Shown here: in pieces, positions 20,573 through 36,609 of the stretch
Numbering within the stretch: the stretch's first letter is position 1
How the letters are laid out: every line of letters starts with the position of its first letter
DNA from: Streptomyces sp. T12
Lineage (GTDB): Bacteria; Actinomycetota; Actinomycetes; Streptomycetales; Streptomycetaceae
Reading direction: 5' to 3'
Assembly: GCF_028736035.1 (NCBI RefSeq)
Contig: NZ_CP117866.1
Location: 3,224,001 to 3,288,000 of the forward strand
Length of the DNA: 64,000 bases
Made by a program: the position numbers and the translations under genes
The notes under the pieces: model-generated
Told to the model about the DNA's origin: nothing
What the model saw: the letters and a program-made list of their open reading frames with translations, nothing else
Databases searched by the model: none

Positions 20573-20575
20573 GCG

Positions 20576-20676: not shown

Positions 20677-20811
20677 TCTCAGGTATGCCGTCCGGCGGTC
20701 ATGCGTTGGCCACGGTCCGTCCACCATGCGCCCCTAGGTTCCATGCCGCCCCCCACGCACGACCCCGTCGTCGACCGACGGCGGGGCGGTACGGCACCTC
20801 TTGGAGTGAGA

Positions 20812-21969
20812 GTGGAACGTCGTAGCCTCCTGCGTGCGGCCGTCCTCGGCGGCTCTGCCGCCGTGTTCGGCGGAACCCTGTCGCGCGGCGCCGCGTACGC
20901 CGCGCCCGCCCAGCCCGGCACCGGTCCCTACGGGCCGCTGGGCTCCCCCGACGCCAACGGCATCAGACTCCCGAGCGGCTTCACCAGCCGTGTCATCGCC
21001 CGGTCCGGCCAGACGGTGACCGGCACGTCGTACACCTGGCACAACGCCCCCGACGGCGGCGCCTGTTACGCCGACGGCAGCGGCTGGATCTACGTCTCCA
21101 ACTCCGAGATCAACCCCTCCGGCGGCGCGAGCGCGGTGAAATTCTCCTCGACGGGCGCGATCACAGCCGCGTACCGCATCCTCTCCTCCACCCGTCAGAA
21201 CTGCGCGGGCGGCAAGACCCCGTGGAACACCTGGCTGTCCTGCGAGGAGGTGTCCCTCGGCTACGTCTACGAGACCGACCCGTGGGGCGTGAACACGGCG
21301 ACCCGCCGGGACGCGATGGGCCGCTTCAAGCACGAGGCGGCTGCCGCCGACCCGGTGCGCCAGGTGATCTACCTGACCGAGGACGAGACGAACGGCCGCT
21401 TCTACCGCTTCGTCCCTACCACCTGGGGCAACCTCTCCTCCGGCACCCTCCAGGTCATGGTCGCGGGCAGCGGCACCTCGGGCTCCTTCAGCTGGGCGAA
21501 CGTCCCCGACCCGGACGGCTCCCCGACGGCCACCCGCTCCCAGGTCTCCGGCTCCAAGTCCTTCAACGGCGGCGAGGGGTGCCACTACGCCAACGACACG
21601 GTGTGGTTCACGACCAAGGGCGACAACCGCGTCTGGCAGCTCAACCTGACGTCGAACACCTACGAGTTGGCGTACGACGACTCCCTCGTCAACGGCACGG
21701 CCCCGCTCACCGGCGTCGACAACATCACCGGTTCCTCCTCCGGCGACCTCTTCGTCGCCGAGGACGGCGGCAACATGGAGATCTGCCTGATCACCCCGGA
21801 CGACATCGTCGCCACGTTCCTGCGGATCGACGGCCAGTCGAGCTCGGAGATCACGGGCCCGGCGTTCTCCCCGGACGGAACACGGCTGTACTTCTCCAGC
21901 CAGCGCGGCACGAGCGGCAGCTCGTCGGGCGGGATCACGTATGAGGTGACGGGCCCCTTCCGCGCATAG
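20812..21969 (+). CDS. Secreted DUF839/PhoX-like protein, Tat substrate
   Basis: A 385-residue exported protein of the DUF839 (alkaline phosphatase PhoX-like) group. The GTG start at 20812 follows cttggagtgaga and gives a twin-arginine signal (ERRSLLRAAVLGG). Family landmarks include WLSCEEV, RFKHEAAAADP, YLTEDE and, late, TGVDNITGSSSGDLFVAEDGG. PhoX-type proteins are Ca/Fe-dependent phosphomonoesterases folded as a propeller; activity in this shorter group is not established. It follows the two-component system on the same strand, but is separated from it by a repeat-filled gap. Confidence 0.82.
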   Translation: MERRSLLRAAVLGGSAAVFGGTLSRGAAYAAPAQPGTGPYGPLGSPDANGIRLPSGFTSRVIARSGQTVTGTSYTWHNAPDGGACYADGSGWIYVSNSEINPSGGASAVKFSSTGAITAAYRILSSTRQNCAGGKTPWNTWLSCEEVSLGYVYETDPWGVNTATRRDAMGRFKHEAAAADPVRQVIYLTEDETNGRFYRFVPTTWGNLSSGTLQVMVAGSGTSGSFSWANVPDPDGSPTATRSQVSGSKSFNGGEGCHYANDTVWFTTKGDNRVWQLNLTSNTYELAYDDSLVNGTAPLTGVDNITGSSSGDLFVAEDGGNMEICLITPDDIVATFLRIDGQSSSEITGPAFSPDGTRLYFSSQRGTSGSSSGGITYEVTGPFRA

Positions 21970-22019
21970 CGATTACGAAACAGACACACATCCCACACAT
22001 CTGGTCGCTGGGCATTACG

Positions 22020-22054
22020 GTCATCCCCTCACGCACCACCAGTGGGGGGATGAC
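22020..22054 (+). promoter_or_regulatory. Hairpin enclosing the ribosome site of the excalibur gene
   Basis: gtcatcccc (22020-22028) pairs perfectly with ggggatgac (22046-22054), and the ATG at 22055 follows at once. The G-rich ribosome site lies within the right arm and loop edge, so folding would hide it. This suggests translational control; it could also be chance in GC-rich sequence. Confidence 0.5.
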
Positions 22055-22528
22055 ATGACCAATCCGTACACCTCGGCACCCATGCCGCAGCCGCCCTTCC
22101 GCCCGGCCCCCGGATGGGCCCGCAAGCGCTACGCCCTTCCCGCGCTGGGGCTGGCCCTCTTCCTGGGCATGGGCATCGGCGGCGCGTCAGGACAGGACTC
22201 GAAGTCCACCGACGCGAAGCCCGCGGCGGCCTCGCCGCGCCCCACGGTCACCGTCACGACGACCATGACGGCACCCGCGGAAGAGCCCGAGCCGGCGCCG
22301 ACGGTGACCGCCACGAAGACGGTCAAGGTCACCACGACGGTCACCGCGGCACCCGCGGCGGACAGCGGCTCCGCCTCTGACGGCGACGGCGACTCGTCCG
22401 GCGCCGACGTCTACTACGGCAACTGCAGCGAGGCCCGGGCGGCCGGTGCCGCCCCCGTCCACCGGGGTGAGCCCGGCTACGGCTCCCACCTCGACCGCGA
22501 CAACGACGGCGTGGGCTGCGACAGCTGA
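22055..22528 (+). CDS. Excalibur-domain membrane-anchored protein
   Basis: A 157-residue protein. The basic N-terminus is followed by one membrane segment (RYALPALGLALFLGMGIGG). A Thr/Pro/Ala-rich stalk precedes a C-terminal excalibur Ca-binding domain (YYGNCSEARAAGAAPVHRG, then DRDNDGVGCD). The domain is extracellular and has an EF-hand-like DxDxDG loop. Function beyond calcium binding is not known. It marks the left core edge of the inserted element: the 29-bp repeat begins 26 bp after the stop. Confidence 0.88.
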   Translation: MTNPYTSAPMPQPPFRPAPGWARKRYALPALGLALFLGMGIGGASGQDSKSTDAKPAAASPRPTVTVTTTMTAPAEEPEPAPTVTATKTVKVTTTVTAAPAADSGSASDGDGDSSGADVYYGNCSEARAAGAAPVHRGEPGYGSHLDRDNDGVGCDS

Positions 22529-22553
22529 CGGACGGGCACAAGCCTCCGGAGCA

Positions 22554-22582
22554 GCGAAAGGGCGGCACCCCCGCACAGGGTG
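22554..22582 (+). repeat. Left 29-bp direct repeat (putative attL core)
   Basis: Identical to 33346-33374 over 29 bp; flanking bases differ on both sides. It begins gcgaaagggcggcaccc and ends gcacagggtg. It is directly next to the integrase remnant, as attachment sites usually are. Confidence 0.75.
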
Positions 22583-22599
22583 TATGGCTGGCTTCAGCC

Positions 22600-22880
22600 G
22601 AGCATGGCGCCACACGGGCTTCCGCGGGTTCGCCCGGTCCTCGATGTGCACGACCTTGGGCGGGAACTCCTTGCGGTGCCACTCGATCTCGTCGACGACA
22701 GACTGCCCCTGAGGCACTGCTCTGTAGCTCTGCTTGGTCTTCGGCTCCCCCAGGTACGGCACGCCCTTGTCGAGGCCGATCAGCTGCTGCTTGACCATGA
22801 CGGTCTCGGCCGGCTCCTCGTCTTCCAGGCCGAACAGCTCGCCCTGGCGGAGTCCAGTGGAAGCCGCCTGCCGCGCTGTG
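22600..22880 (-). pseudogene. Tyrosine integrase remnant
   Basis: A minus-strand frame carries GLRQGELFGLEDEE, typical of the start of the catalytic domain (with the first Arg) of phage-type tyrosine integrases. PKTKQSYRAVPQGQSVVDEI follows, typical of the next strand. The N-terminal arm and core-binding domains and the C-terminal HxxR/Tyr part are missing. The frame runs out into the attachment repeat without its own stop. It is fused upstream to a different recombinase remnant near 22880. Confidence 0.65.
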
Positions 22881-23184
22881 GCGGGACGCCGATCTTTCGC
22901 AGGTGGACTTGGAGGCTGACCGGATTCATGGGCTGTCCGGGCCGGCGACCGGGGAAGAGCCACTGTGAGCTTCCACTGCTGGCGTAGGGCAGGTGCTGGC
23001 GGGACTGGACGTATGCCCGCATGAGGTCAGCGACGGGTTCCGGAAGCGGGGGCGGCGGGTCTCCCAGCCGGACGGTGAGGGTAGCCCCGTCGTCGATGAC
23101 GTCGTCGATGACGTCGTCGACGGTGAGGCGGACGATGCGGGTGACGGGTTGCGCGTAGAGGCGACAGCCCTTCCACGCCGACAT
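22881..23184 (-). pseudogene. Second recombinase remnant (transposon type)
   Basis: A minus-strand fragment reads LYAQPVTRIVRLTVDDVIDD and later WLFPGRRPGQPMNPVSLQVH. It resembles the middle of tyrosine recombinases found in Streptomyces transposable elements. Both ends are missing: the 5' side abuts the headless LacI gene at about 23183 and the 3' side joins another integrase fragment in a different frame. A 12-bp tandem duplication (gtcgtcgatgac, near 23094-23117) gives a repeated VIDD in the protein. Confidence 0.5.
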
Positions 23185-23959
23185 GGTTGAGGCGCTCTAC
23201 GCCGCGGCGGGGGCGGCCGGCTATCAGATCGCGCTCAGCGCCGTCGCCGCGAGCCGCAGCGAACAGGAGGCGGTGGAGACGCTGCTCGCCGACCGCTGCG
23301 AGGCGCTGATCCTGCTCAGCCCCCATGCCCCGGCGGCCCGGCTGGCAGAACTCGCGGCGCAGCTTCCCGTCGTCTCCGTGGCCCGCCGGCTGCGTCCGCT
23401 CACCGACGGCGTCGACGTCGTCCGCGCGGCCGACGACGAGGGCGCCCGCCAGGCGGTCGACCACCTCGTGGCACTGGGCCATCGCGACATCGTCCACATC
23501 GACGGGGGCAGGGCGCCGGGCGCTGCCGACCGGCGCCGCGGCTACAAGTCGGCCATGAAGCACCACGGCCTCACCGACCGCGTCCGCCTCGTGCCGGGCG
23601 GGCTGACCGAGGACCACGGTGCGGCAGCCGCACGAACACTCCTCGCCGAGGCTGCCCGCCCCACCGCCGTCCTCGCCTTCAACGACCACTGCGCCATCGG
23701 CGTCCTCGACACCTTCCTGCGCGCCCGTATCCCTGTGCCCGACGAGATCTCGGTCGTCGGCTTCGACGACAGCCACCTCGCCCGCCTCGCCCACGTCCAA
23801 CTCACCACGGTCGGGCAAGAAGCCCGCCAGCTGGCGCGCCGGGCCGTGAGCCGGGCCGTCGCCCGGCTGGAGGGTGAGGCGGCGGACGACGAACGAGAAG
23901 TCGTCGTCACACCACACCTCGTCATACGAAGCACCACCAGGGCACCTTGCCGCTCCTGA
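23183..23959 (+). pseudogene. LacI-family regulator lacking its DNA-binding domain
   Basis: 258 codons match the ligand-binding half of a LacI/GalR regulator (periplasmic-binding-protein fold: EALILLSPHAPAARLAEL, DHLVALGHRDIVHIDGG, RRRGYKSAM, SVVGFDDSHLARLAHVQLTT). About 70-80 N-terminal residues with the helix-turn-helix are absent. The frame begins at the junction with the recombinase remnant, without a ribosome site. The product, if made, could not bind DNA like an intact LacI protein. Confidence 0.85.
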
Positions 23960-24192
23960 CCCGCGCTGCTCCAGTCCCGGCCCGATCTGGTCGAAGTTCC
24001 ACCGCGGCCCCAAAGGACCACCCGCGGCTGTCCGCCGAGGAACCCGCCTCCATCCGAGCGGACGCGCGAGCCAAGGAGGCAGGCAAGCGGGCGAACGCGA
24101 GCCGCTGCCTTGGATCGCGCTGTTCAGACACCGCACCACCTGGGGCATGGAACGGATTGGCATGAAGCGGATCGGTCGGCCGCCTGAGGTCA

Positions 24193-24354
24193 GTGATCGG
24201 TGAGCTGCAGGAGAACCTGCGGCTGTCCACGGCGGAACGGCAGGCGACCACGGAGAACACCGGGCTCCGGCAGCGAGTCACCGAGCTTGAGGACGGCCTC
24301 ACCGCAGCCCGCACCAGCCTCCGCCGCATGATCCGCAACGAGAACCGTCCCTAG
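24193..24354 (+). CDS. Short coiled-coil ORF, probably a transposon-gene fragment
   Basis: A 53-codon frame from GTG 24193. It is Glu/Arg/Leu-rich and predicted coiled-coil (ELQENLRLSTAERQATTENT, then RQRVTELEDGLTAARTSLRR). Its style is that of the C-terminal coiled coils of transposon accessory proteins such as DUF6262/TnpC. gagg lies 5 nt before the GTG. The preceding 23960-24192 contains no convincing gene. Function unknown; a fragment is more likely than a complete gene. Confidence 0.4.
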   Translation: MIGELQENLRLSTAERQATTENTGLRQRVTELEDGLTAARTSLRRMIRNENRP

Positions 24355-24469
24355 ATGATCAATTCCAAGGGATGTCTGCGGAGGGTGTGAGGTGGGCGGC
24401 GGCCGAAGCCACCGCGAGACGGTCAGGCGGCGGGCTGCCGGCCCTGGTTGTCGAGGTGGCAGCGGGCGG

Positions 24470-24859
24470 TCAGGCGTCAGGGTCGACTTCGGGGTGCGTG
24501 AACCGCACGGGCTTGCCCAGCGACCGGGCGTAGGCGATTTCGGCTCGGGTGCTGTCTCCGATGTAGTCGCCGACTACGAGCACCTCATCAGCAAGCCGGA
24601 TCTTCGCCCGGTGCAGATCGTCGAGTCGAACCTTCAGCACCTCGGCCTCGACAGGATCGGACCAAAGTTCGTGCGGCGACTTCATGTCACAGCCCGGTTT
24701 GACGACAATCTTTCCGGCTTTGGTCTCCCGCAGATCGGCCTCGTTCATCTCGGCCATGAAGCGGGTGGAGCCGCAGATCACGACGATACGCGGGAGGCTC
24801 AACAGCTTCTTCGCGTCGGCGAGCTTCTCCTCGGGGGTGAGCAGTTGCGGGTATGACAC
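24470..24859 (-). CDS. Nucleoside 2-deoxyribosyltransferase-like protein
   Basis: A 129-residue cytoplasmic protein with a flavodoxin-like fold of the nucleoside 2-deoxyribosyltransferase superfamily. It has IVVICGSTRFMAEM at the first strand and GDYIGDSTRAEIAYARSLGK, the usual Gly/Ser/Glu-rich active-site region. The GTG start at 24859 has a strong ribosome site (ggaggaacca). Relatives cleave or transfer nucleoside bases, and some phage or defence islands carry them; its role here is unknown. It lies downstream of the P-loop kinase gene on the same strand. Confidence 0.7.
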   Translation of the reverse strand: MSYPQLLTPEEKLADAKKLLSLPRIVVICGSTRFMAEMNEADLRETKAGKIVVKPGCDMKSPHELWSDPVEAEVLKVRLDDLHRAKIRLADEVLVVGDYIGDSTRAEIAYARSLGKPVRFTHPEVDPDA

Positions 24860-25026
24860 TGGTTCCTCCTGGTGGTGTGGTCCAAGGGGTGCCTGCGCAG
24901 ACGAGAACGAGGGATCTTTCTGAGCCCGGCGCCCCTGGCACGGCCAGGTTGTCGAACCATCCACGTGCGCCCACGGCTTACCCCAGGCTCCCGCCCCCAG
25001 TACCGGCACCAAGGTTGGCCGGACGG

Positions 25027-25551
25027 TCACGCGAGTGACGGCCACCGATCGGTAGCCCACTCCAGCCAACCTGACCAGCCAGGAGGCGGACCTCCAACCC
25101 CATGGCCCTCGAGTTCCGCGACATCGGGCTCCTCGAACAGCGTCCTCCAGTGCACGAGGTCCGTCTCGCTCATCGCGAAGGTCTGATGAGGGGTGGTCGA
25201 CTGGCGATGGGCGACCCGAGCACGTTGGGTCTCATGGTCCACCGGCACATACACAAGCTGACAAGACGCGCCCACAGACATCACCAACCAGCGGATCGCG
25301 GATCTCTCGTCACGAGACCAGCATCCGAAATCCAGGACCACGTCGGTTCCCAACCTGAGCGCCTCCAGACCAAGCCAGAGCAGCCGTCCTTCCAGCACAT
25401 CGCGCTTCCCCTCCGGCTGCGGATCGCCGAACAGCGGGAGCATCCACTCATCCGGCGTCAGCCGCAGAGCGCTGTGCTCCTTGGCCAGCTGCCGAGCCCT
25501 CGTGGTCTTTCCGGCCCCGGGCAGGCCAACCGTCAGGAACAACGTCGTCAC
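25027..25551 (-). CDS. P-loop kinase (AAA_33/zeta-toxin-like)
   Basis: A 174-residue P-loop protein with Walker A GLPGAGKTTRARQLA at the N-terminus, a DEW motif (LTPDEWMLPLFGD) and the Walker B-like strand DVVLDFGCWSRDERSA. A lid region contains basic residues (RARVAHRQ). This matches small AAA_33 kinases that phosphorylate nucleosides, sugars or nucleic acid ends. It resembles zeta toxins, but no antitoxin is seen beside it. The substrate is unknown. Confidence 0.8.
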   Translation of the reverse strand: MTTLFLTVGLPGAGKTTRARQLAKEHSALRLTPDEWMLPLFGDPQPEGKRDVLEGRLLWLGLEALRLGTDVVLDFGCWSRDERSAIRWLVMSVGASCQLVYVPVDHETQRARVAHRQSTTPHQTFAMSETDLVHWRTLFEEPDVAELEGHGVGGPPPGWSGWLEWATDRWPSLA

Positions 25552-25756
25552 ACCCAGATCCTGTCACGAAGGCCAAGTGGGAGGATGAATCCTTTTGCTG
25601 CCGAGATCGCCGCACCTGCTCCACTTCGTCGGTGTACTGGCGCAGCCGAGGGCCGGCGGTGTCGCTGGGGATCGGCTCGCCGATCTCGGGGTCGACGGAG
25701 ATGACGACCAGGACACGGTCCAAGGCGTGGATCTCCGCCTCGGTGGTGACGTTCTC

Positions 25757-26215
25757 CAGCCCAACCCGGTCGACCGCGGTAAATCCGGCAGCAAGCTGCA
25801 CGTGTTGTCCGAGGCTCAGGGCGTCCCGCTGGTGGTCGGCACCTCCGGCGCGGACACCAACGACAGCCTGGCCCTCAAGCCTCTGGTGATAGGGATACCG
25901 GCCGTGCGGTCCCGGCGTGGACCGCGCCGCAAGCACCCCGCCAAACTCCGCGCCGACAAGGCTTACCACTGCGCCGACATCCTTTCCTGGCTGCGGGAAC
26001 GCGACATCGTCGCCCGGATCGCCCGGCCGGGCATCGAGTCCTCCGAACGGCTCGGGCGGCACCGCTGGGAGATCGAGCGGTCTCCTGGCTGTTCGGCTAC
26101 CGCCGCCTCACCATCCGGTACGAACGAAAAGGCAGCCACCTCCTCGCCTTCCTCGGCCTCGCCGCCGCCCTGACCTGCTACAAGAAACGTGCCGAACTCA
26201 CCACCTGGGATATCG
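25757..26215 (+). pseudogene. IS5-type transposase, truncated and frameshifted
   Basis: A DDE transposase remnant of the Streptomyces IS5/IS4 kind. It starts at VDRGKSGSKLHVLSEAQG (second catalytic Asp region) and runs through ADKAYHCADILSWLRERDI to WEIERS. A base is lost near 26080, after which the next frame gives WLFGYRRLTIRYERKG. The N-terminal third with the first Asp is missing, and no terminal inverted repeats were seen. An unrelated minus-strand frame at 25564-25760 (TEAEIHALDRVLVVISVDP) may be another gene scrap. Confidence 0.75.
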
Positions 26216-26238
26216 CCTCATTCCTGGTGGACCCGTTT

Positions 26239-27957
26239 TCAGGCAGAGGTGCCCGTGACCGCGGTGCCGGACCTGGTCAGCGTGTACGTCAAGATCGCCC
26301 CGCTCCAGAAGTGGAAGGTGAGGGTCACGGTGGTGTTGTCGGTGACACCGTCGAAGAACGCGGTCGGCAAGGTGATCGTGCCTGCGGTGTAGTCCGGTGC
26401 GAAGGCCACATTGAACTGCTTGTACGTCGTCCAGGACTGCGGACCGGCGGCGGTGCCGTCGGCATAGACGGCTTCCATCGTCGCCAACTTGTCGCCGTTG
26501 AACGCGGTGGGTATCACCAGCGAGGCTGTCGTACCCGTCGCGCTCGTCAGTACCGACTTGTCATAGGTGATGACGTTGACGGCCCAAGGAATTCCGTCCG
26601 TGAACCGGAGGGACAGGACGGCATTCGTGCCGTACTCCTGCGACTCGGTCAGCCGGCTGAGCGTCGCCGCTGCGATCGTCAGCGTGTTGCCGCTGACGGT
26701 GTAGTCCACGCCCCGGATCAGGGGGCGGGTGCCGACATCGATCCGCAGCAGCCTGGTGCCGTTGAGGTTCAGCGTGATCGTCGCGTCCGTCGGGGTCTTG
26801 CCCTTGGGCACGAAGAGCTGATCGGTGGACGCGGTGCCGGAGCGCCCGGTCCAGCTCGACCGTATCTGCGCATAGAGGCTCGGGTCGTTCCATTGCAGGG
26901 TGCGGCGGTTGAAGCGACTGCCGTTGTCCCACAGCATCGTGGTCAAGCCCCGGTAGCGCGCGTAGTAGCCGAGATACTCGAGGTACTTGAGCGTCTCGCC
27001 CTGTTCGACCGTGCCGGGGCCGGAGTCCCAGCCGAGCAGCCCGTACTCACCGACGACGACCGGGATCCCCTTGGCCACGAAGGCCCTGTGCAGCAGGTCG
27101 AACGTGTCGGTCAGGTCCTGCTGGGTGGCCGCGTTGAAGGTCGTGTAGCCGGCGAGGTTCACGCTGAAGGGCCAGAAGCTGTAGTAGTGGACCGAGGCCA
27201 CGAGGTTGGGGTCGTCGAGCGCGGAGAAGGTGGCGAGCAGGGTGTCGATCTTGGGCTGATCCGGGGTGTCCCCGAGGGTCGGCATGACGAGCAGGCGGTC
27301 GGCATTGCCTCCGCCGGTCGCGCGCACGACGGAGTGGAATGTCGTGTTGAGCTCGTTCATCAGAACGGCGTTCTGCTGATCGCCGGAACTGCCGGTGAAG
27401 AAGGGCTCGTTGATGCTCTCGAAAAGCAGTCGGCGCGGCTCGTCCCGGAAGGTGGCCGCGATCTGCTGCCAGGTGGCTGTGTACTGGGCCAGGACCGCGT
27501 CATGCTGGGTCGGCATGTTCGGCACCCACTGCCACGCGTCGCCGTGCATGTTGATCAGAACGTAAAAACCATCGGCCAAGGCCCAGTCGACCACCTGCTT
27601 GATCCTGGCCAGGAACACCGGGTCGAGGGTATAGGTCGGAGCCGGGCCCTCGTGCTGGCCCCAGGTCACCGGGATCCGGATGCTTCTGAAGCCCTGCGCC
27701 TTCAGCCTGCGGAAAAACGCCTGGGTCACCCGCGGGTTGCCCCACGCCGTCTCGTCGGCGCCGATGGCCTCGAAGCTGTTGCCCAGATTCCAGCCGGGCT
27801 GCATGTTTGCGACTACGTCCAGCGCGGACGCCGACGCGGCGGAAGCAGTGGACCGGGCAGCGGCCTGGGCGGCCGTCGGGATGGACAACGCCGTGACGGC
27901 GAGGGCCGCGGAGGTCGTCATGACCTGGCGACGAGTGAAACCGGTTGAACTCGGCAT
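26239..27957 (-). CDS. Secreted GH5 endoglucanase with CBM_X2-type domain
   Basis: A 572-residue secreted cellulase. The start at 27957 is preferred over 27969 because ggagag lies 4 nt upstream. A twin-arginine-like signal (TRRQVMTTSAALAV) precedes a GH5 barrel beginning at GWNLGNSFEAIG. The catalytic acid/base is Glu in SINEPFF (about 184) and the nucleophile is Glu in VVGEYGLLG (about 304). From about 385 a CBM_X2-like domain (DATITLNLNGTRLL, DYTVSGNTLTIAAA) and a second beta domain follow. Two LacI-type palindromes lie upstream, pointing to sugar-controlled expression. It is an intact gene within the degraded element. Confidence 0.9.
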   Translation of the reverse strand: MPSSTGFTRRQVMTTSAALAVTALSIPTAAQAAARSTASAASASALDVVANMQPGWNLGNSFEAIGADETAWGNPRVTQAFFRRLKAQGFRSIRIPVTWGQHEGPAPTYTLDPVFLARIKQVVDWALADGFYVLINMHGDAWQWVPNMPTQHDAVLAQYTATWQQIAATFRDEPRRLLFESINEPFFTGSSGDQQNAVLMNELNTTFHSVVRATGGGNADRLLVMPTLGDTPDQPKIDTLLATFSALDDPNLVASVHYYSFWPFSVNLAGYTTFNAATQQDLTDTFDLLHRAFVAKGIPVVVGEYGLLGWDSGPGTVEQGETLKYLEYLGYYARYRGLTTMLWDNGSRFNRRTLQWNDPSLYAQIRSSWTGRSGTASTDQLFVPKGKTPTDATITLNLNGTRLLRIDVGTRPLIRGVDYTVSGNTLTIAAATLSRLTESQEYGTNAVLSLRFTDGIPWAVNVITYDKSVLTSATGTTASLVIPTAFNGDKLATMEAVYADGTAAGPQSWTTYKQFNVAFAPDYTAGTITLPTAFFDGVTDNTTVTLTFHFWSGAILTYTLTRSGTAVTGTSA

Positions 27958-28007
27958 AGAACTCTCCATTGAGTCGAAAGCCCTTCCCTCATGTCGAAGG
28001 CGTCATC

Positions 28008-28023
28008 GTCGAAGCGCTTCGAC
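28008..28023. promoter_or_regulatory. LacI-type operator, perfect 16-bp palindrome
   Basis: GTCGAAGCGCTTCGAC is a perfect palindrome with the central CG typical of LacI-family operators. It is 51 bp upstream of the cellulase start codon. Half-sites gtcgaa also occur at 27973 and 27993. Confidence 0.72.
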
Positions 28024-28110
28024 AGGTTGGGGGAGCCTAGCGCAACCTGACGACGGAGAGAACGGGCTAATCCGCATGGAATCTCAATCGAGTTCGAAAG
28101 GTTGCGTGTC

Positions 28111-28120
28111 GAAGCGCTTC
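28111..28120. promoter_or_regulatory. Second LacI-type operator
   Basis: GAAGCGCTTC is a perfect 10-bp palindrome with a gtc flank, the same core as the operator at 28008-28023. The two centres are exactly 100 bp apart. Between them and up to 28321 no gene is seen; the 27958-28321 gap is cellulase control region plus IS debris. Confidence 0.65.
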
Positions 28121-28321
28121 TCCCCATGGGGCGTCAGGCCCGGCGTCACGCAAGCTCGTCGGGGTTCCCTGCTCATCTGCCGTCGATGCCGACCGGGCCG
28201 GCCCGCGAGCAGCGGACCGGAAAGTCCCGACAAGCCACTGGCCATCGAGGCGCTTCCAGCGGCCGTTCCTTCACGCAACGTTGCTCAGCCTGACTCTGTC
28301 GGGGATCTTGGATGGTCGGGC

Positions 28322-28523
28322 TCAGCTGCCGAGGGTTCGCCAGGGTTTTGACCGGGGGATCTCGTTCTGGTCCAGGAAGGTCTGGAAAGCGGTCGGCGGT
28401 CTCGGCGAAGAGGCTTCCTCGGTCGCTGGCTGACCGCTGAGGCGTTCGATGTTTCACGGCGATGGCCGTGAGGACGTGTTGCAGGTGGGCTTTCGGCTGT
28501 CCTCGGTAGCGGCAGTGGCGCAT
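28322..28523 (-). pseudogene. IS1182-type transposase 3' remnant
   Basis: The C-terminal end of an IS1182-family transposase. RHCRYRGQPKAHLQHVLTAI continues, after an extra base near 28452 (the ttt run), as RLSGQPATEEASSPRPPTAF and ends IPRSKPWRTLGS at a stop (28324-28322). All catalytic residues are missing. Confidence 0.7.
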
Positions 28524-28589
28524 GCCGTGTCCGTGGGCGAACTCAGGCGAGGGATGCGCTCGCTCCCGGCGTGTCCTCCGGTAGTCCGG

Positions 28590-28860
28590 TCAACGGTTCG
28601 ATGCTGCCCGCCGGCGCATCCGTCGGCGACCGTGACCGCTCCGGCGCTGGGACCGGAAGCGAACGCGGCCACCGCTGTGCCGGTCGCGTCGACCAGGTCC
28701 GTGATGCCGGGGGTGTGCAGCACGGCCGTACGGACCGGCTCGTCGTCGGCGGTCATGTACCGCAGCTCCGGCGACACATGCGGGTCGCGGAAGTGGTGAC
28801 GCAGATCGATGGTCAGGTGCGCGGCGGGAGGCTCGCCGTGCGCGACGGTGACGAAGTCGC
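28590..28860 (-). pseudogene. RapZ C-terminal-domain protein remnant
   Basis: A minus-strand frame matches the RapZ C-terminal domain: HLTIDLRHHFRDPHVSPELR, VRTAVLHTPGITDLVDAT, and VTVADGCAGGQHRT with the conserved GCxGGxHR. The stretch after HR is replaced and the N-terminus is cut at the GntR fragment. Stand-alone RapZ-C proteins occur in Streptomyces; in the full-length protein this domain binds small RNAs and metabolites. Here it is a scrap. Confidence 0.65.
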
Positions 28861-28879
28861 GTTCATTGCTGACCGTGTC

Positions 28880-29377
28880 GCATCGGGACGCGCGTACAAG
28901 CGCAACGAGCAGACGCAGACCGTGAGCCGTGTCGAGGCGGACAGCCTCGTAGCGGAGGGGCTGGGCGTCCCAGTCGGCTCCGAGGTGTACGCACGCGCCC
29001 GCCTCGTGAAGGAAGGGATGCAGCCGACTCATACCCTGACCAGCTACTACAGGCCGGAGCACGTCGAGGGGACACGTATCGTCGACCCCACCCCGGGCCC
29101 TGCCGGCCGTGGCGGCGGATACCGGGTCCTCTACGACGCCGGATACGAGATCGACCACATGAGAGAGGTCCTGTTCGCCCGCATCCCGACTGCGGACGAA
29201 GTACAGCTCCTACAGCTCCCCGCCGGCGAGCCCGTAGTCGAGCTGCATCGGACCACGTACACGGCAGATGGCACGGTGGTTGAGTTCGCCGTGGGCGTCC
29301 ACGCGGCTTCTCGCTTCGCGTGGGAGTACGACTTCAAGGTTCCCGACTCGGCACAGGACAGGAAGGGGCAGGAATGA
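28880..29377 (+). pseudogene. GntR/HutC regulator lacking its HTH (UTRA domain only)
   Basis: The plus frame from about 28880 encodes a UTRA ligand-binding domain (RNEQTQTVSRVEADSLVAEG, YRPEHVEGTRI, LLQLPAGEPVVELHRTTY, FAVGVHAASRFAWEYDF). The GntR winged helix that should precede it is replaced by sequence antisense to the RapZ-C remnant. The stop overlaps the YdcF start (ATGA), showing the original operon. DNA binding is presumably lost. Confidence 0.75.
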
Positions 29378-30048
29378 TCTCGGCACGGGTATGGGCGGAT
29401 GCTCGACTCCTGTGGGACTACCACTTCATGCACCACGACGCACGGCCGTGTTCAGTGGCCGTGGGGCTTGGCAGCCACGACCTAGGCGTGGCCGACGTGA
29501 CAGCGGAGCTGTACCACCAGGGCATGGCTCCGGTCATCGTCTTCACGGGGGCCACCAGCCCCACGACCAGGGCGCGCATGCCGCGCGGTGAAGCTGTCCA
29601 CTACCGTGAGCGGGCGTTGCAGCTAGGGGTGCCCGATTCCGCAGTACTCCTGGAACCGCGTGCCACGAACACCGGCGAGAACATCGAGTTCACGAAAGCG
29701 GTGTTGGCGGAGACCGACGTCAAGGTCTCGTCCGTCCTGCTCGTGACCAAGCCGTACGAAGAACGGCGCTCGTACGCCATGATGCGGAAGATGTGGCCCG
29801 AGGTCGAAGTGGTGTGCGCGTCCACGCCGATGGGCTTGGAAGAGTACGCCGACTCCATCGGGGACGCCCGCATGGTGATCGACATGATCGTTGGCGCCCT
29901 GCAACGAGTGCTCGTCTTCCCGAGGTTGGGTCTGGCCATCGAGCAAGATGTACCAGACACCGTCGTAGCCGCCTTTGAGCGACTGTGCGTCGAAGGCTTC
30001 ACTAGCCGACTCATGCCAGCTGACGTTGCTGCCCGCCCCGGCACGTGA
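29374..30048 (+). CDS. YdcF/DUF218-family protein
   Basis: A 224-residue DUF218 (YdcF/SanA-like) protein. It shows GLGSHDLGVADVTAELYHQG at the first strand, VIVFTGATSP, then ATNTGENIEFTKAVL and LVTKPYEERRSYAMMRK, the family's conserved core. There is no signal peptide, so it is a cytoplasmic type. The ATG overlaps the truncated GntR gene by 4 bp, with a good ribosome site (ggaaggggcagga). YdcF proteins bind nucleotide-like ligands, but their function is unsettled. The gene seems intact. Confidence 0.85.
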   Translation: MISARVWADARLLWDYHFMHHDARPCSVAVGLGSHDLGVADVTAELYHQGMAPVIVFTGATSPTTRARMPRGEAVHYRERALQLGVPDSAVLLEPRATNTGENIEFTKAVLAETDVKVSSVLLVTKPYEERRSYAMMRKMWPEVEVVCASTPMGLEEYADSIGDARMVIDMIVGALQRVLVFPRLGLAIEQDVPDTVVAAFERLCVEGFTSRLMPADVAARPGT

Positions 30049-30321
30049 TGCCAGGGCGGGCAGCAGCCCACCCTGAGCTTCGTTCTGCACTTTCCCTGCC
30101 TCATCAAGGCCCGCGCACGGCGCGGGCGCGCCGCCTCTGCGGCGCGGCCTGCCTCCTGTCTGCGCCCCGGCTGGCCGCGCCCGGCGGCGCGCTGCGTGCA
30201 TGCGGGCAAGGGCGGGACATCATCCGCGGGCACAAGAAGATGCCTCCGGCGGGGGATCGGCCGACACCGGGATGGAGGGGGCGCCGTCGCCGACTGCGGG
30301 CCCGTAGTGGCGTGCGTGGGG

Positions 30322-30471
30322 GCTCCCATCCCGACCACCGTCGACCCAGGCAGAGCCGAGCAGACGCGGCCCATGGCGTCCAGGTCGTTCGTACAGTGGC
30401 GCGCTCCACCTGGGCGCCATGAACCACGCCTGCTCCACGGTGTGTGGGTCGACGGCGGACGGGATGGGAGC
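30322..30471. repeat. 150-bp imperfect inverted repeat
   Basis: Arms 30322-30385 and 30408-30471 pair over about 64 bases with a 22-nt loop. The outer block (gctcccatcccg ... cgggatgggagc) and the inner block (ccatggcg ... cgccatg, ccaggt ... acctgg) match best; about 15-20 positions mismatch, most of them in one internal stretch. It lies in the 475-bp gap between ydcF and the HNH gene; 30049-30321 shows no gene. It could be a miniature inverted-repeat element or a structured RNA. Confidence 0.65.
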
Positions 30472-30523
30472 TGGGGAGGCTTGCTGTTGAAAGGTAGGCT
30501 TTCTGTCAGTCCATTTGGCTACC

Positions 30524-31195
30524 ATGCATGGCGTGGCAACGTCGAGACCCAAAATTCCGAGCGAGCTGCGCCGACGAGTGCTCATTGAAGCTGGCCATCG
30601 CTGCGCGATTCCAACTTGCAAGTCCACGCCTGTCGAGATTGCGCACATCATCCCGTGGGCGAAAGTGCGAAAGCATGAGTTCAAAAATCTAATTGCGCTA
30701 TGCCCGACGTGTCATACGCGTTTCGACGACCCACATGGTCCTATAGATCGAAAGGCCATGCGTCAATACAAGGCGAACCTGAACCCCCTCCTGTCGATCA
30801 GCCTTGCCAATCGAAACGGGCAAGCCAACATGCTCGCTGCCTACCAGGAGCTTAGAGGGAGGTTTACGGAGTGGCTTCCGGTTGAAGTGGAATATGCGGC
30901 AATCAAGTCTCGTCGATCCTCATCACGCGAGAAAATCGAAAAAAACAAGTCGGACGCAGTGGATAAACTCGCATGGGCGATCGGCGCTGTAGCTGACTTC
31001 CAATCGGCCTGGGGTGAGTCAGAAGTTTCGGATCTGGCTGGAGCAATCTTTTACCATGTGGCCGACTGGTGTGATGAAGTCGAGAGCGCACCGTTCCCTC
31101 TCCCGGAAGCCTTGAAGCGGCGGGATATTTTAGAGGAGATTTCAGAAGCTTCAGCAGACCTTCATCTGATGGTATGTGAAGAGCTTTCGATGTAG
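30524..31195 (+). CDS. HNH endonuclease-domain protein
   Basis: A 223-residue protein with an N-terminal HNH nuclease domain. The zinc knuckle Cys are in HRCAIPTC and CPTCH, with catalytic HIIPW and the Asn in NLIALC. The rest (about residues 95-223) is an uncharacterised helical region with a basic linker (KSRRSSSREKIEKNK). G+C is far below the neighbourhood (28 of 60 bases in 30661-30720), marking it as recently acquired. The ATG at 30524 is used; a TTG at 30515 is possible, and no clear ribosome site is seen. HNH proteins in such islands often act in restriction or phage defence. Confidence 0.82.
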   Translation: MHGVATSRPKIPSELRRRVLIEAGHRCAIPTCKSTPVEIAHIIPWAKVRKHEFKNLIALCPTCHTRFDDPHGPIDRKAMRQYKANLNPLLSISLANRNGQANMLAAYQELRGRFTEWLPVEVEYAAIKSRRSSSREKIEKNKSDAVDKLAWAIGAVADFQSAWGESEVSDLAGAIFYHVADWCDEVESAPFPLPEALKRRDILEEISEASADLHLMVCEELSM

Positions 31196-31351
31196 AGTGC
31201 GCCACCTTCGAATGAACGGTTGGGTGTAAGGCCAGTGGAAAGACGAATGCAACGCAGCCGTACAGGGCGTGGGCAACGACCCAGCCCTTGGGTGGCCGTC
31301 TTTGGGCCGTCCGAGGGCGATCGGTGGTGGCCGCGGTCGACCAGCCTGGCG

Positions 31352-32329
31352 TTAGTACAAATGCAACCAATTGAGGTCCTTGGATTGCACAATCCCTTGA
31401 GAGAGTGCGCGCTGCACGTCTTCGCTGAATACATCTTTCAGATCCCAGAACCGCGGCTGACCTCCCCCGCCCCCAGAGTCACCGTATGCCTTAAAGCCGT
31501 CCGCGAGTGGGCGTAGTGTCGGGTCCGTCAGTGAAAGCCGTTCGTATAGAGCTGCTATAAGTACAGCAACCGTAGGGGAGTCTGATTGCCTCTCCATCAT
31601 AGACGTCATTGCCGATCCGGCGTCCCGTTTGGCCCCTGCTTCCGCGCTCAAATGCCTGACCATCGCCTGAGGAAGAAAAGGCATACGCGATGCGAACCAC
31701 ACTCCCAGGTCTGCAATGCAGAGCAGGTCCAGGCTCTCTCTTGGATGTCGCGCGTAAATGTTATCCATTTCAATGCAAATTGCTTGCACGTGAGCTTTCT
31801 GGTGATCTCCATTCCATGAATGCGAATGGGCGAGGAGTCCGACCGGGAAAGGTGGAGACATTTCTTCCCGGGGGCTACCTATCCGTGGTTTGATCCCTCT
31901 TTGGATCCTGGCTGCGCGATCAAAACCATCTCGGATTCCGTTCTTGTTTAGCGTTAGCTTAACACTAAAAGCGGCTGCGACGCCGCTCGCCAATACCTCT
32001 TCGCGAACTCGCAAGGCCCGCGGGTAACTGGGCTGAAAGATGATTAGGTCAGTTTCAAATAGATCATCTCCCTCCTCGGGGACAATGTACTTCCTTGTGG
32101 CTACCTCATAAGTTGGCGGAAGCCATTCGCTAAGAATTCGTGCCCAAGTTCCCTCACCGCCGTGTCCAGCGCGCTGTGGATCTGAGCGGGCTGCGCCATG
32201 TAGCCGGGTGTACTCCTGCTGTATGTCGTGCTCCACGGCTCGGAGCCACCTGTGATGAACGGCGCTCGTCTCGGGAGCGTGGGGTTGCGAAGATGGCTCT
32301 GGCATGGCGTCATGCTGGCGCTTGTCCAT
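31352..32329 (-). CDS. DUF6602-like protein, putative PD-(D/E)XK nuclease fold
   Basis: A 325-residue protein, AT-rich (27 of 60 bases G+C in 31921-31980). The N-terminal half fits DUF6602: GEGTWARILSEWLPPTYEV, then TDLIIFQPSYP and VAAAFSVKLTLNKNGI. In DUF6602 the last block usually reads like IEVKSTL; here Ser replaces the Glu before VK, so catalysis may be altered or lost. The C-terminal half is unassigned. It is convergent with the HNH gene, 156 bp apart. The start is uncertain (32329 used; 32305 and 32443 possible). Confidence 0.6.
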   Translation of the reverse strand: MDKRQHDAMPEPSSQPHAPETSAVHHRWLRAVEHDIQQEYTRLHGAARSDPQRAGHGGEGTWARILSEWLPPTYEVATRKYIVPEEGDDLFETDLIIFQPSYPRALRVREEVLASGVAAAFSVKLTLNKNGIRDGFDRAARIQRGIKPRIGSPREEMSPPFPVGLLAHSHSWNGDHQKAHVQAICIEMDNIYARHPRESLDLLCIADLGVWFASRMPFLPQAMVRHLSAEAGAKRDAGSAMTSMMERQSDSPTVAVLIAALYERLSLTDPTLRPLADGFKAYGDSGGGGGQPRFWDLKDVFSEDVQRALSQGIVQSKDLNWLHLY

Positions 32330-32550
32330 GAGCCAGTACAGCACCCGGCCGCTACCTGGCGTGAACCCGATGAGCAAGCCCGTCGTCTCGCGTGTGATCG
32401 TCTCTGGGCCGTCCCTGGGCCGTCCGACGCCCCCCGAGGCCACTCAACGGCGACCGACAGTGACAGTCGACCCACAGCCGCCAGCAGCGAACCCCCAGGT
32501 CACAGCCCCCCGGCCATACGGGTTTCCCCCAGGGGTAGCCGTCAGGCAAG

Positions 32551-32898
32551 ATGGGGCGCTTCTTTCCGCCGGGCGGCCGCGCTGCCTGGATGTCCTGGGG
32601 GACTTCCGTGATCATCGCTGTATCGGACGGGCACGACCCGGCCTACCAGCTCCAGACGAGCCTGCTCACGCTGATCTTTGGTATAGCGCTCATCAGTGTC
32701 GGACGGATGCTGCGGCGGACCGGACGGCTGCCTGCGTATCTCGACTTCAGACAGAAGGCGTTGGGCTCGCTGGCGCCGCAAGAGGGCAGGAGTGCCGGCG
32801 TCGGAAGGCTCGGCGCAGCCATGATCGCCGTGGGCGGGTTCTTCCTCTTCGGTACCGCCTGCCTCATACTCGGCGCGCTGGGCGTGCTCGGTCCGTGA
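32551..32898 (+). CDS. Small two-helix membrane protein
   Basis: A 115-residue protein with two membrane segments (LLTLIFGIALISVGRML and AAMIAVGGFFLFGTACLILG) joined by a basic cytoplasmic or extracellular loop. The start could instead be GTG 32608, which follows ctgggggac and would remove a poor N-terminus. No family is recognised. It is the last gene of the inserted element on the right. Confidence 0.5.
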   Translation: MGRFFPPGGRAAWMSWGTSVIIAVSDGHDPAYQLQTSLLTLIFGIALISVGRMLRRTGRLPAYLDFRQKALGSLAPQEGRSAGVGRLGAAMIAVGGFFLFGTACLILGALGVLGP

Positions 32899-33345
32899 GG
32901 ACAGACTCTGGGGGAGCCACGCCAGCTTCGGGGTGAGTGTCTAACTGCGTGACAACGCCGACGGACAGCGGCGGACGAGCTCGGAACACCTGCGGACCAC
33001 CGCAGCAGGTGAGAGGCACCCCAGCCCATGGGAGAGCGCTCCAGCGAGTTGCTTCGGGACGATGAAGTCTCCTGCCAAATCTCGGTGTTGTATTCGATGT
33101 TCGTACTCAGAACACCCGTCTACGGAACAGATGCGCCGTCTGCCAGGCCACACGCCCTCTACGACCCCGCGTACTCCACTGGCGGGCCGGGGCCTCTGTG
33201 GTGACGGCCCGTGAAGGGGACTCAGCCGCGTGTGGAGGGCACAACGAGGGCACAACGTCCTCACGCAGGTTCAACGGCTGCCAACGCCACCAAACGCTGT
33301 TTGCCCTGGTCAGCGACATAGCTTGACAGCCTCCGCAGATCATGC
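32899..33345. other. Gene-free stretch inside the element's right end
   Basis: No convincing gene on either strand. The one visible feature is a perfect 11-bp tandem duplication of gagggcacaac (33235-33245 and 33246-33256), about 90 bp before the right 29-bp repeat. It could be a recombinase arm site or chance. Confidence 0.5.
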
Positions 33346-33374
33346 GCGAAAGGGCGGCACCCCCGCACAGGGTG
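33346..33374 (+). repeat. Right 29-bp direct repeat (putative attR core)
   Basis: Identical to 22554-22582. It overlaps the left arm, loop and first bases of the right arm of the ppdK terminator, so the element seems to have entered a terminator rather than a tRNA gene. Confidence 0.75.
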
Positions 33375-33382
33375 CCGCCCTT
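33350..33382 (-). terminator. Strong hairpin terminator downstream of ppdK
   Basis: aagggcggcaccc (33350-33362) pairs perfectly with gggtgccgccctt (33370-33382) around a 7-nt loop. It lies 75 bp past the ppdK stop. Being symmetrical, it can also stop transcription from the element. Confidence 0.8.
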
Positions 33383-33457
33383 CCTTCGTGCACCGGAACC
33401 GCCGCCCATCGGTACTGAGGGTCGGGGACGGACGACGGCTCCGGAGTCAGGGGGAGG

Positions 33458-36178
33458 TCAGCGGTGGTCGCTGCCCTCCGACTGCGAGGCCGCGCGCCCC
33501 GCCTCCAGCCGCGCCACCGGGATCCGGAACGGCGAGCAGGAGACGTAGTCCAGGCCGACCTCGTGGAAGAAGTGGACCGACTCCGGGTCGCCGCCGTGCT
33601 CACCGCAGACGCCGAGCTTGAGGTCGGGGCGGGTCTTGCGGCCCGCCTCCGCGGCCAGCTTCACGAGGGAGCCGACGCCGTCCTTGTCGATCGTCTCGAA
33701 CGGGGAGACACCGAAGATGCCCTTCTCCAGGTACGCCGTGAAGAACGAGGCCTCCACGTCGTCCCGGCTGAAGCCCCACACCGTCTGAGTGAGGTCGTTC
33801 GTGCCGAAGGAGAAGAACTCCGCCGCCTCGGCGATCTGACCGGCCGTGAGGGCAGCGCGCGGCAGCTCGATCATCGTGCCGATCGACAGCTTCAGCTGCA
33901 CGCCCGTCGCCGCCTCGACCTCCGCGACGACCTGGTCGGCCTCCTCGCGGACGATCTCCAGCTCCTGGACCGTGCCGACGAGCGGGATCATGATCTCGGC
34001 GCGCGGGTCGCCCTTGGCGTTCTTGCGCTCGGCCGCGGCCTCGGCGATCGCCCGTACCTGCATCGTGAACAGGCCCGGGATGACCAGGCCGAGGCGCACA
34101 CCGCGCAGACCCAGCATCGGGTTCTGCTCGTGCAGCCGGTGGACCGCCTGGAGCAGCCGCAGCTCGTTCTCGTGCGGCTCCTGACGGGACTCGGCGAGGG
34201 CCACGCGGACCGACAGCTCGGTGATGTCGGGCAGGAACTCGTGCAGCGGCGGGTCGAGGAGACGGATCGTCACCGGCAGGCCGTCCATCGCCGAGAACAG
34301 CTCCACGAAGTCCTGCTTCTGCAGCGGGAGCAGCTCCTTCAGGGACTCCTCGCGCTCGGCCTCCGTGTCGGCCAGGATCAGGCGCTCGACCAGCTCGCGG
34401 CGGTCGCCGAGGAACATGTGCTCCGTACGGCACAGGCCAATACCCTGCGCCCCGAACCTCCGCGCGCGCAGCGCGTCCTCGGCGTTGTCCGCGTTGGCGC
34501 GCACCCGCAGGCTCCGCTTGCGGTCGGCGAACGCCATGATCCGGTGCACGGCCTCGACCAGCTCGTCGGCGTCGCTGGCGCCCGCGTGCATCCGGCCCTC
34601 GAAGTACTCCACGACCGGGGACGGGACCACCGGCACCTCACCGAGGTACACCTTGCCGCTGGAGCCGTCGATGGAGATGACGTCGCCCTCCTCCACGACG
34701 TGCCCGCCCGGCACCGTCATCCGGCGCCGCTTGGTGTCGACCTCCAGCTCCTCGGCGCCGCACACACAGGTCTTGCCCATGCCGCGCGCGACCACGGCCG
34801 CGTGGGACGTCTTGCCGCCACGGCTGGTCAGGATGCCCTCGGCGGCGATCATGCCGTCCAGGTCGTCGGGGTTGGTCTCCCGGCGGACCAGGATGACCTT
34901 CTCGCCGGAGCGCGACCACTTCACGGCGGTGTACGAGTCGAAGACCGCCTTGCCGACCGCCGCACCCGGCGACGCCGCGATGCCCCGGCCGACCTGCTCG
35001 ACCTTGGCCTCCTCGTCGAACTTCGGGAACATCAGCTGGGCGAGCTGGGCGCCGTTGACGCGCTGGAGCGCCTCCGCCTCGTCGATCAGTCCCTGGTCGA
35101 CCAGCTGCGTGGCGATACGGAAGGCGGCGCCCGCCGTGCGCTTGCCGACGCGGGTCTGGAGCATCCACAGCTGACCGCGCTCGATGGTGAACTCGATGTC
35201 GCAGAGGTCCTTGTAGTGGTTCTCCAGCGTCTCCATGATCTGCATCAGCTGGTCGTACGACTTCTTGTCGATCGTCTCCAGCTCCGCCAGCGGGACGGTG
35301 TTGCGGATGCCCGCCACCACGTCCTCGCCCTGGGCGTTCTGGAGGTAGTCGCCGTACACGCCCTGGTGGCCGGAGGCGGGGTCACGGGTGAAGGCGACGC
35401 CCGTACCCGAGTCCGGGCCCAGGTTGCCGAAGACCATGGAGCAGACGTTGACGGCCGTGCCCAGGTCGCCGGGGATGCGCTCCTGGCGGCGGTACAGCTT
35501 GGCCCGGTCGGTGTTCCAGGAGTTGAAGACCGCCTCGATGGCGAGGTCCATCTGCTCGCGCGGGTCCTGCGGGAAGTCCCGGCCGGCCTCCTTCTTCACG
35601 ATCTTCTTGAAGGCGGTGACCAGCTTCTTCAGGTCGGCGGCCTCCAGGTCGGTGTCGACCGTGACCTTCTTGGCCTCCTTGGCCCTGTCGAGGGCGTCCT
35701 CGAAGAGCTCGCCGTCGACGCCGAGGACGGTCTTGCCGAACATCTGGATGAGGCGGCGGTAGGAGTCCCAGGCGAACCGCTCGTCGCCGGCCTGGTCGGC
35801 GAGGCCCTTCACGGACTTGTCGGAGAGTCCGATGTTGAGGACCGTGTCCATCATTCCGGGCATCGAGAACTTGGCGCCGGAACGGACCGAGACCAGCAGG
35901 GGGTTGTCGGCCTGGCCGAGCTTCTTGCCCATCTTCGTCTCGAGGGCGTCGAGGTGCGCACTCACCTCGTCACGCAGTGCCGCCGGCTCCTCGCCACTGT
36001 CGAGGTAGACCTTGCAGGCTTCCGTCGTGATCGTGAAGCCGGGGGGAACGGGGAGTCCCAGGTTGGTCATCTCGGCGAGGTTCGCGCCCTTGCCACCCAG
36101 GAGGTCCTTGAGGTCCTTGTTTCCCTCGGTGAAGTCGTAAACGAACTTCGCTACGTGGGGTTCTTTGTTTTCCGACAC
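33458..36178 (-). CDS. ppdK: Pyruvate, phosphate dikinase
   Basis: A 906-residue PPDK that interconverts pyruvate + ATP + Pi and PEP + AMP + PPi in the cytoplasm. Features in order are the N-terminal ATP-grasp domain (LLGGKGANLAEM), the phospho-carrier His in GGKTSHAAVVARGMGK, and the C-terminal PEP/pyruvate barrel with the catalytic Cys in LGVCGEHGGDP. Full length for the bacterial enzyme. The GTG start at 36178 follows gagggagtcgagacc. It is monocistronic between a terminator downstream and a hairpin-rich region upstream. Confidence 0.96.
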   Translation of the reverse strand: MSENKEPHVAKFVYDFTEGNKDLKDLLGGKGANLAEMTNLGLPVPPGFTITTEACKVYLDSGEEPAALRDEVSAHLDALETKMGKKLGQADNPLLVSVRSGAKFSMPGMMDTVLNIGLSDKSVKGLADQAGDERFAWDSYRRLIQMFGKTVLGVDGELFEDALDRAKEAKKVTVDTDLEAADLKKLVTAFKKIVKKEAGRDFPQDPREQMDLAIEAVFNSWNTDRAKLYRRQERIPGDLGTAVNVCSMVFGNLGPDSGTGVAFTRDPASGHQGVYGDYLQNAQGEDVVAGIRNTVPLAELETIDKKSYDQLMQIMETLENHYKDLCDIEFTIERGQLWMLQTRVGKRTAGAAFRIATQLVDQGLIDEAEALQRVNGAQLAQLMFPKFDEEAKVEQVGRGIAASPGAAVGKAVFDSYTAVKWSRSGEKVILVRRETNPDDLDGMIAAEGILTSRGGKTSHAAVVARGMGKTCVCGAEELEVDTKRRRMTVPGGHVVEEGDVISIDGSSGKVYLGEVPVVPSPVVEYFEGRMHAGASDADELVEAVHRIMAFADRKRSLRVRANADNAEDALRARRFGAQGIGLCRTEHMFLGDRRELVERLILADTEAEREESLKELLPLQKQDFVELFSAMDGLPVTIRLLDPPLHEFLPDITELSVRVALAESRQEPHENELRLLQAVHRLHEQNPMLGLRGVRLGLVIPGLFTMQVRAIAEAAAERKNAKGDPRAEIMIPLVGTVQELEIVREEADQVVAEVEAATGVQLKLSIGTMIELPRAALTAGQIAEAAEFFSFGTNDLTQTVWGFSRDDVEASFFTAYLEKGIFGVSPFETIDKDGVGSLVKLAAEAGRKTRPDLKLGVCGEHGGDPESVHFFHEVGLDYVSCSPFRIPVARLEAGRAASQSEGSDHR

Positions 36179-36497: not shown

Positions 36498-36609
36498 AAC
36501 CCTTATCAAGGGTGGCGAGAATCACGCTGCCACAGCCGCCGGGATTTCACCATGCGGACGTGCGTCCGGGACGGAAACGTGCCCGTCACACAGCCGGTCC
36601 GAACGGCCG

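Follow-up and report, generated by a model that had tools for sequence, protein, structure and literature searches.

A probable AICE-type remnant at a terminator-like hairpin between convergent genes of Streptomyces sp. T12

The locus analysed lies in a 64,000-nucleotide stretch of the genome of Streptomyces sp. T12 (NZ_CP117866.1, positions 3,224,001 to 3,288,000), hereafter the window. Two convergent genes, an excalibur-domain gene on the plus strand (22055..22528, PF05901) and ppdK, encoding pyruvate phosphate dikinase, on the minus strand (33458..36178; PF01326, PF02896 and PF00391), are here separated by a 10.8-kb block bounded by a perfect 29-bp direct repeat. The copies, at 22554..22582 and 33346..33374 on the plus strand, are exact, and no match was obtained in 100 shuffles. 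The right copy, the putative attR core, forms part of a complete and strong hairpin (33349..33382, no strand) located 75 bp from the ppdK stop, with 12 consecutive pairs and a 7-base loop on the plus strand and folding z values of -5.5 and -6.3 on the plus and minus strands, respectively. The left copy, the putative attL core, starts 25 bp past the excalibur stop and comprises the left arm, the loop and five right-arm bases. As its identity to the right arm ends after GGGTG and the sequence continues as TATGGC, the left copy does not fold (z +0.7). Both the perfect repeat and the loss of the left copy's arm after five bases had been proposed in an earlier reading made from the letters alone (the sequence-only reading), and alignment and folding agree with it. 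The inner 26 bases of the repeat were found at two places only in the whole 11.46-Mb genome with up to 3 mismatches allowed, which rules out a common terminator repeat, the possibility that would have counted against element ends. There was no tRNA gene anywhere in the 64-kb window, ruling out a tRNA target, and no Rfam RNA at gathering score in 18000-38000. Further ppdK-like matches in the same genome were located at contig positions 5375939, 10814420 and 10716958.

Empty sites were observed in two related genomes. In G355 the match to the PhoX-excalibur side ends at window position 22582 and the match to ppdK begins at 33344, both overlapping on one hairpin, and G254 likewise holds excalibur, one hairpin and ppdK. 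When the window flanks were joined across the block they aligned to G355 as a single piece (414 columns, 84%). In G254 the alignment consisted of a main piece (457 columns, 71%) and a short second match inside it. An empty site with one repeat copy and an intact hairpin had been named in advance as support for insertion, and excision of the block had been expected to rebuild the hairpin beside excalibur. The excalibur-ppdK spot is variable, as in many other relatives the hairpin is separated from excalibur or PhoX by different DNA, and PhoX-excalibur is inverted relative to ppdK in G049 (L015), G007 (L016) and G357 (L009).

An intact relative was found in Streptomyces cyaneus CGMCC 4.1671 (G290), whose ppdK side was the closest to the window among the relatives searched (96.7-99%). 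Here 19.4 kb lie between two core copies at the same ppdK hairpin and encode a 411-aa integrase (PF00589), a C5 methylase, an HNH protein, TraB, TraA, an intact GntR regulator and a DUF218 protein, followed by the right end of the family described below. TraB and TraA scored above the curated NCBIfam cut-offs (NF041214, 990.7 bits with a cut-off of 800; NF041213, 245.6 with a cut-off of 80). The integrase and TraB by which an actinomycete integrative and conjugative element (AICE) is recognised are both present, and the 19.4-kb element is, by its predicted genes, an AICE. Its 739-aa rep-like open reading frame (ORF; L003:4508-6727) matched nothing in Pfam, NCBIfam or PHROGs. That the integrase has a close relative among phages or plasmids was rejected, every best place being below 60% identity and those listed at about 30% or less. 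The element also carries, at L004:6414-7403, a gene of the metallo-beta-lactamase (MBL) fold resembling PADLOC candidate PDC-M48B (8.8e-18).

The window shares with this element 43 exact bases at the left junction (L003:2413-2455 in G290), an integrase piece (280 bp, 93%), the GntR-DUF218 region (1190 bp, 95%) and the right end (123 bp, 86%). The first 13 element bases in the window (22583..22595, plus strand) are the left half of a hairpin carried by the element itself, which S. cyaneus retains in full. These are followed by a tyrosine-integrase remnant (22595..22891, minus strand) corresponding to residues 208-306 of the S. cyaneus integrase (99 codons, 90%). Between 22595 and the integrase piece 361 bp of S. 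cyaneus are missing from the window, namely integrase codons 307-411 with the HDLRH, LGH and tyrosine motifs, a tandem repeat of CAGGGCAC and the element hairpin's right half. The catalytic residues of tyrosine integrases are HxxR, H and Y. With only residues 208-306 of 411 left that end is gone, and a search of window stretch 20001-36500 for the TraB, TraA and rep-like ORF of S. cyaneus found none of them, so that neither the complete integrase nor the translocase of an AICE was recognised in the block. Toward ppdK lie a GntR regulator reduced to its UTRA part, with the helix-turn-helix missing (28840..29377, plus strand; 94% protein identity to the intact S. cyaneus element gene), a DUF218 (YdcF-like) gene (29320..30048, plus strand; protein 95% to the S. 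cyaneus element gene) and the element right end common to the family (33221..33345, plus strand), in which a tandem GAGGGCACAAC repeat (33235..33257, plus strand) presumably provides integrase arm sites. Integration and transfer genes have been lost and both cores are exact, as in the cis-mobilizable element (CIME) defined in the excerpt of PMC5704250; unlike in a CIME, the left arm repeats are deleted, which makes mobilisation of the remnant in cis doubtful. As judged from sequence, the window block is a decayed, CIME-like remnant of an AICE-type element.

The family was surveyed further in order to establish where such elements reside. A scan of genome contigs for the integrase returned 13 loci, 11 of them at 63-100% identity in the best segment (among these S. 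adustus L053 is broken and L049 runs off its contig) and two at 33-36%. A ppdK-type core was found just past the integrase 3' end in all ten of the 11 loci with a readable flank, so that the check proposed in the sequence-only reading, a search for the 29-mer next to intact integrases elsewhere, spoke for insertion; the two distant integrases have no such core. BLAST linked the right end to ppdK in 10 of these 11 hosts, and in MZ04 it is diverged and was read by eye; in S. phaeofaciens and S. zinciresistens the right end with ppdK is on a different contig from the integrase. Of 392 genomes searched within the genus, 28 gave a match to the integrase with an E value of 1e-60 or lower; among them is the window genome, where the closest such match is 37% identical. 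A pattern of right end plus hairpin, built from this family with the window included, matched 31 places in 30 of the 392 genomes and its reversed control none among the matches listed. With at most 2 mismatches, 20 of 22 places were at ppdK, the window's own included and G166 about 200 bp off. The nine places with 3 mismatches were mixed: G003, G414 and G106, the latter with both ends, belong to the site, and G430 and G367 share an unrelated-looking string. Core-to-core distances ranged from about 5.8 kb (G414, with a partial integrase) to 36.6 kb (G055), and G106 and S. adustus, in which a right-end-like sequence directly precedes the left core, hold tandem insertions.

Tandem cores of this kind are evidence of accretion at the site, and a history of pile-up has to be considered for the window block as well. 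The 10.8 kb was searched against the 392 genomes, one or two candidates being scored for each, and among the matches listed none outside the window genome was longer than about 2 kb, at scattered places. On these listed matches, the whole 10.8 kb being ordinary gene content shared by relatives was rejected, an outcome that would have refuted insertion. The LacI, kinase-like, GH5 and GntR genes match scattered places in other genomes, and several of the matches listed begin at 23161 or 28840, where the window copies are truncated; a piece of an insertion sequence (IS) is also present. We therefore regard it as reasonably probable that the 10.8 kb arose from an old AICE-type insertion at the hairpin followed by separate insertions, deletions and translocated chromosomal genes. 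Such a pile-up is not really opposed to the insertion of an AICE-type element, as both cores, the integrase piece and the right end belong to one family.

The hairpin-site integrases, 14 of the 29 placed in a tree, formed one clade with support of 100/100. Thirteen reside at the ppdK hairpin and one, that of G320, at a different hairpin between a convergent transglycosylase-like gene and an FHA-ABC gene, with arm GAAGGGCGGCACC and loop TGGT; the ppdK of G320 itself is on a separate contig. The FHA-ABC locus was matched in 33 of 41 genomes, G320 included, and was empty in 18 of the 18 others read, leaving 14 further matched genomes. The empty loci carry hairpins with similar, not always equal, arms and varied loops. 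Since 13 of 14 hairpin-site integrases in the tree lie at ppdK, recognition of the ppdK-side DNA with the hairpin being incidental was considered. This is unlikely, as the G320 element resides in another hairpin with the same GAAGGGCGGCACC arm and different flanks and loop, and the sequence common to both ends of the elements is the hairpin itself. Flanks were also read for eleven integrases of 47-56% identity (ten yajQ loci and G124; G267, G223 and G352 were left out). The ten yajQ integrases form a neighbouring group with support of 82/91, and their order relative to G124 and the hairpin clade is not fixed by the tree; each is located at the yajQ 3' end (DUF520, with PF04461 found at one locus and an identical C-terminus in all ten). 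At these yajQ loci, L125-L134 (G306, G307, G319, G367, G376, G338, G377, G317, G177 and G237), a tRNA-Tyr gene was observed about 0.7 kb away in nine of ten.

We conclude that the block is very probably a decayed AICE-type element that was inserted by an integrase into the intrinsic-terminator-like hairpin of excalibur and ppdK. In the proposed mechanism, a tyrosine integrase would insert the element by site-specific recombination into the hairpin of the two convergent genes, with an attP holding a copy of the hairpin left arm, the loop and the first right-arm bases. The arms would be bound as integrase core sites and the loop would be the crossover region, so that crossover would take place inside the hairpin and most likely in the loop; GAGGGCACAAC and CAGGGCAC would act as arm sites. 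At attR, the full attB hairpin would be rebuilt for ppdK from the element left arm and the host right arm. At attL, the left gene would lose its hairpin and an intact element would bring its own, which in S. cyaneus is followed by a run of five T. In this strain the 361-bp deletion would have cost the element its left arm repeats, one half of its own hairpin and the C-terminal end of its integrase, and the remnant, with no recognisable transfer or replication gene and with cargo mid-block, should no longer move by itself. The proposal that the repeat is an attachment core is upheld by the empty sites and by intact integrase elements at the same core, and a terminator hairpin, rather than a tRNA gene, as target is in keeping with the lack of tRNA genes in the window and the position of the clade at hairpins. 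It is plausible, and on balance we favour it, that this AICE-type integrase clade is specialised on bidirectional terminator hairpins between convergent genes, with the arms as inverted core sites and the loop as overlap. Such integrases would retarget by keeping the arms and changing the loop, as from ppdK to FHA-ABC in G320, and would repair the host terminator on one side and bring their own on the other.

Integron attC and CTX phage sites are used as folded single-stranded DNA, and the near-perfect hairpin, in which arms of roughly 13 bp are separated by a 7-8-base loop, that loop being CCGCAC in 63 of 77 ppdK loci, could be used likewise. An equal 13-8-13 geometry, however, is that of loxP and of an ordinary double-stranded tyrosine-recombinase core. 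As AICE TraB is in addition reported to move double-stranded DNA (excerpt of PMC9513070), use of the folded form is very unlikely. Terminator-like hairpins with similar arms do occur elsewhere, but a repeat arising from homologous recombination or terminator duplication with no integrase involved is highly improbable given the intact relatives, the occurrence of the 29-mer core at two places only in the genome and the occupation of the locus in many species by an integrase clade with the core at its 3' end.

Several observations weigh against insertion of an AICE-type element into a terminator hairpin, or against parts of it. The ppdK hairpin has no clear U-run, and its terminator activity can for this reason only be presumed. 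The right ends of the window and S. cyaneus agree at only 86% with ppdK sides at 96.7%, so that the two may be separate insertions; since noncoding ends may change faster, the figures allow one insertion or two. Of the 22 good matches to the right end, two are not at ppdK (G379 and G024). The S. cyaneus TraB was matched by tblastn in 2 of 11 related elements (cyaneus and SID13726), a count in which misses are possible as TraB is diverse, and among eight long ORFs compared with NCBIfam only that of SID13726 passed the TraB cut-off; most family members can thus not be called conjugative. The rep-like ORF was matched in 7 of 11 elements, two of them partially. Covariation is likewise to be read with its selection in mind: in 63 ppdK hairpins (57 distinct), chosen from 77 loci for a CCGCAC loop and a stem of at least 8, a 14-pair helix was paired in 95.4% of cells and 12 of its 14 pairs showed changes in both partners, a number attained in none of 500 shuffles, pairing falling to 46-62% in slid versions of the helix. 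The 14 loci dropped had no CCGCAC loop with a stem of 8; G371 and G007 have the loop with a stem mismatch. For the element-borne hairpin, aligned in eight relatives with the exclusion of S. phaeofaciens and S. adustus, whose hairpins differ, 93.3% of cells were paired and 5 pairs showed changes in both partners; this number was attained in 5 of 500 shuffles, and the number of pair types in 314 of 500.

Sixteen core pairs were read at ppdK. In 12 the arms are the same in both copies, host-specific variants included (G433, G436, G010, G414 and G293), which also counts against the proposed mechanism, as host-specific pairs with the same arms fit a simple model only if attP matched that host beforehand. 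In the remaining four (G106, G432, G435 and G438) the left arms differ, and in all four the one in the left copy is the better fit to the right arm of the host, which places the crossover to the right of the outer left arm. The weakest of these is G106, since its tandem element may have supplied the left arm. The two core copies stay identical up to and including GGGTG in the S. cyaneus type and for a longer stretch in G102, G439 and G055. The core pairs are consistent with a crossover in or next to the loop. The loop CCGCAC (33363-33369 in the window) is kept in 63 of 77 Streptomyces ppdK loci while the stem covaries; in seven ppdK loci from outside the genus the loop of the best hairpin is a different one, four bases long in five of them.

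Integrases are thought to favour tRNA genes partly for their conservation, symmetry and restorability. Terminator hairpins of convergent genes share these traits and are noncoding and common. With intact relatives of the element in the same hairpin in other Streptomyces, terminator-like hairpins can, as tRNA genes do, serve as landing sites for such elements. Work by Robart in 2007, cited in PMC3898094, is reported to have found that group IIC introns insert after intrinsic terminators; these likewise target an intrinsic terminator hairpin but do so by retrohoming of intron RNA with no integrase. The attTn7 insertion position lies in the glmS terminator. Tn7, which inserts at attTn7 downstream of glmS (excerpt of PMC2918618), similarly uses a safe site past a conserved gene but differs in being a transposase system whose recognised sequence is within the coding region. 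The S. cyaneus relative resembles the AICEs pSAM2 and SLP1 in its core-adjacent tyrosine integrase, TraB, GntR regulator and direct repeats. According to the excerpt of PMC3218068, the vast majority of AICEs with tyrosine integrases use tRNA 3' ends, with the pSLS subfamily excepted; the family here, in contrast, targets a hairpin between convergent genes. The excerpt of PMC9513070 gives one intergenic site among 51 and describes a decayed AICE with a partial integrase, cargo and two repeats, which is in the same state of decay as the window block, with an empty site and an intact element in relatives, but lies in a glycosyltransferase gene rather than a hairpin. Neither ppdK nor a terminator hairpin is named as an AICE target in the portions of the literature searched, and the intergenic site of PMC9513070 or the pSLS subfamily of PMC3218068 may represent an earlier, unnamed sighting. 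A clade with empty, intact, decayed and retargeted members makes the rule of target choice directly testable, and its integrases may be useful for gene-sparing insertion of DNA between genes.

The remainder of the block agrees with the recombinase scraps, IS debris and foreign-looking genes that the sequence-only reading had placed between the repeats. An ORF overlapping the integrase remnant (22780..23184, minus strand) matched nothing in Pfam or PHROGs, and its upstream part may resemble another recombinase. This is followed by a stretch (23161..24212, plus strand) with a LacI-type ORF (23183-23959, PF13377) that lacks its DNA-binding part, and several matches in relatives, at other places, start at the same base, 23161. 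An ORF at 24470-25069 with no Pfam match and an AAA_33 kinase-like gene at 25027-25551 (together 24470..25551, minus strand) precede the IS transposase piece (DDE_Tnp_1; 25595..26173, plus strand) and a GH5 cellulase gene with CBM_X2 and CBM46 (26239..27969, minus strand). The LacI, kinase-like and GH5 genes mid-block look like mosaic cargo. Close relatives of the GH5 and LacI genes were observed on one contig in reversed order at a different locus (G136:C83:2840-12012). Beyond DUF218 lie an HNH endonuclease gene (30515..31195, plus strand; PF01844) and a DUF6602 gene with weak PD-(D/E)xK or NucC-like similarity (31352..32443, minus strand). GC content drops to 0.55-0.58 in 1-kb windows beginning at 30.5, 31.0 and 31.5 kb, and these two genes (30515-32443), with their weak similarity to defence nucleases (NucC, PD-DExK), occupy the AT-richest part of the block. 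The right-end matches away from ppdK, in G379 (L122) and G024 (L124, C60), both have the core, and that of G024 is accompanied by sequence resembling the ppdK hairpin on its host side. A 64-nt inverted repeat (30322-30385 and 30408-30471), 80% complementary with a spacing of 22 nt, was also observed.

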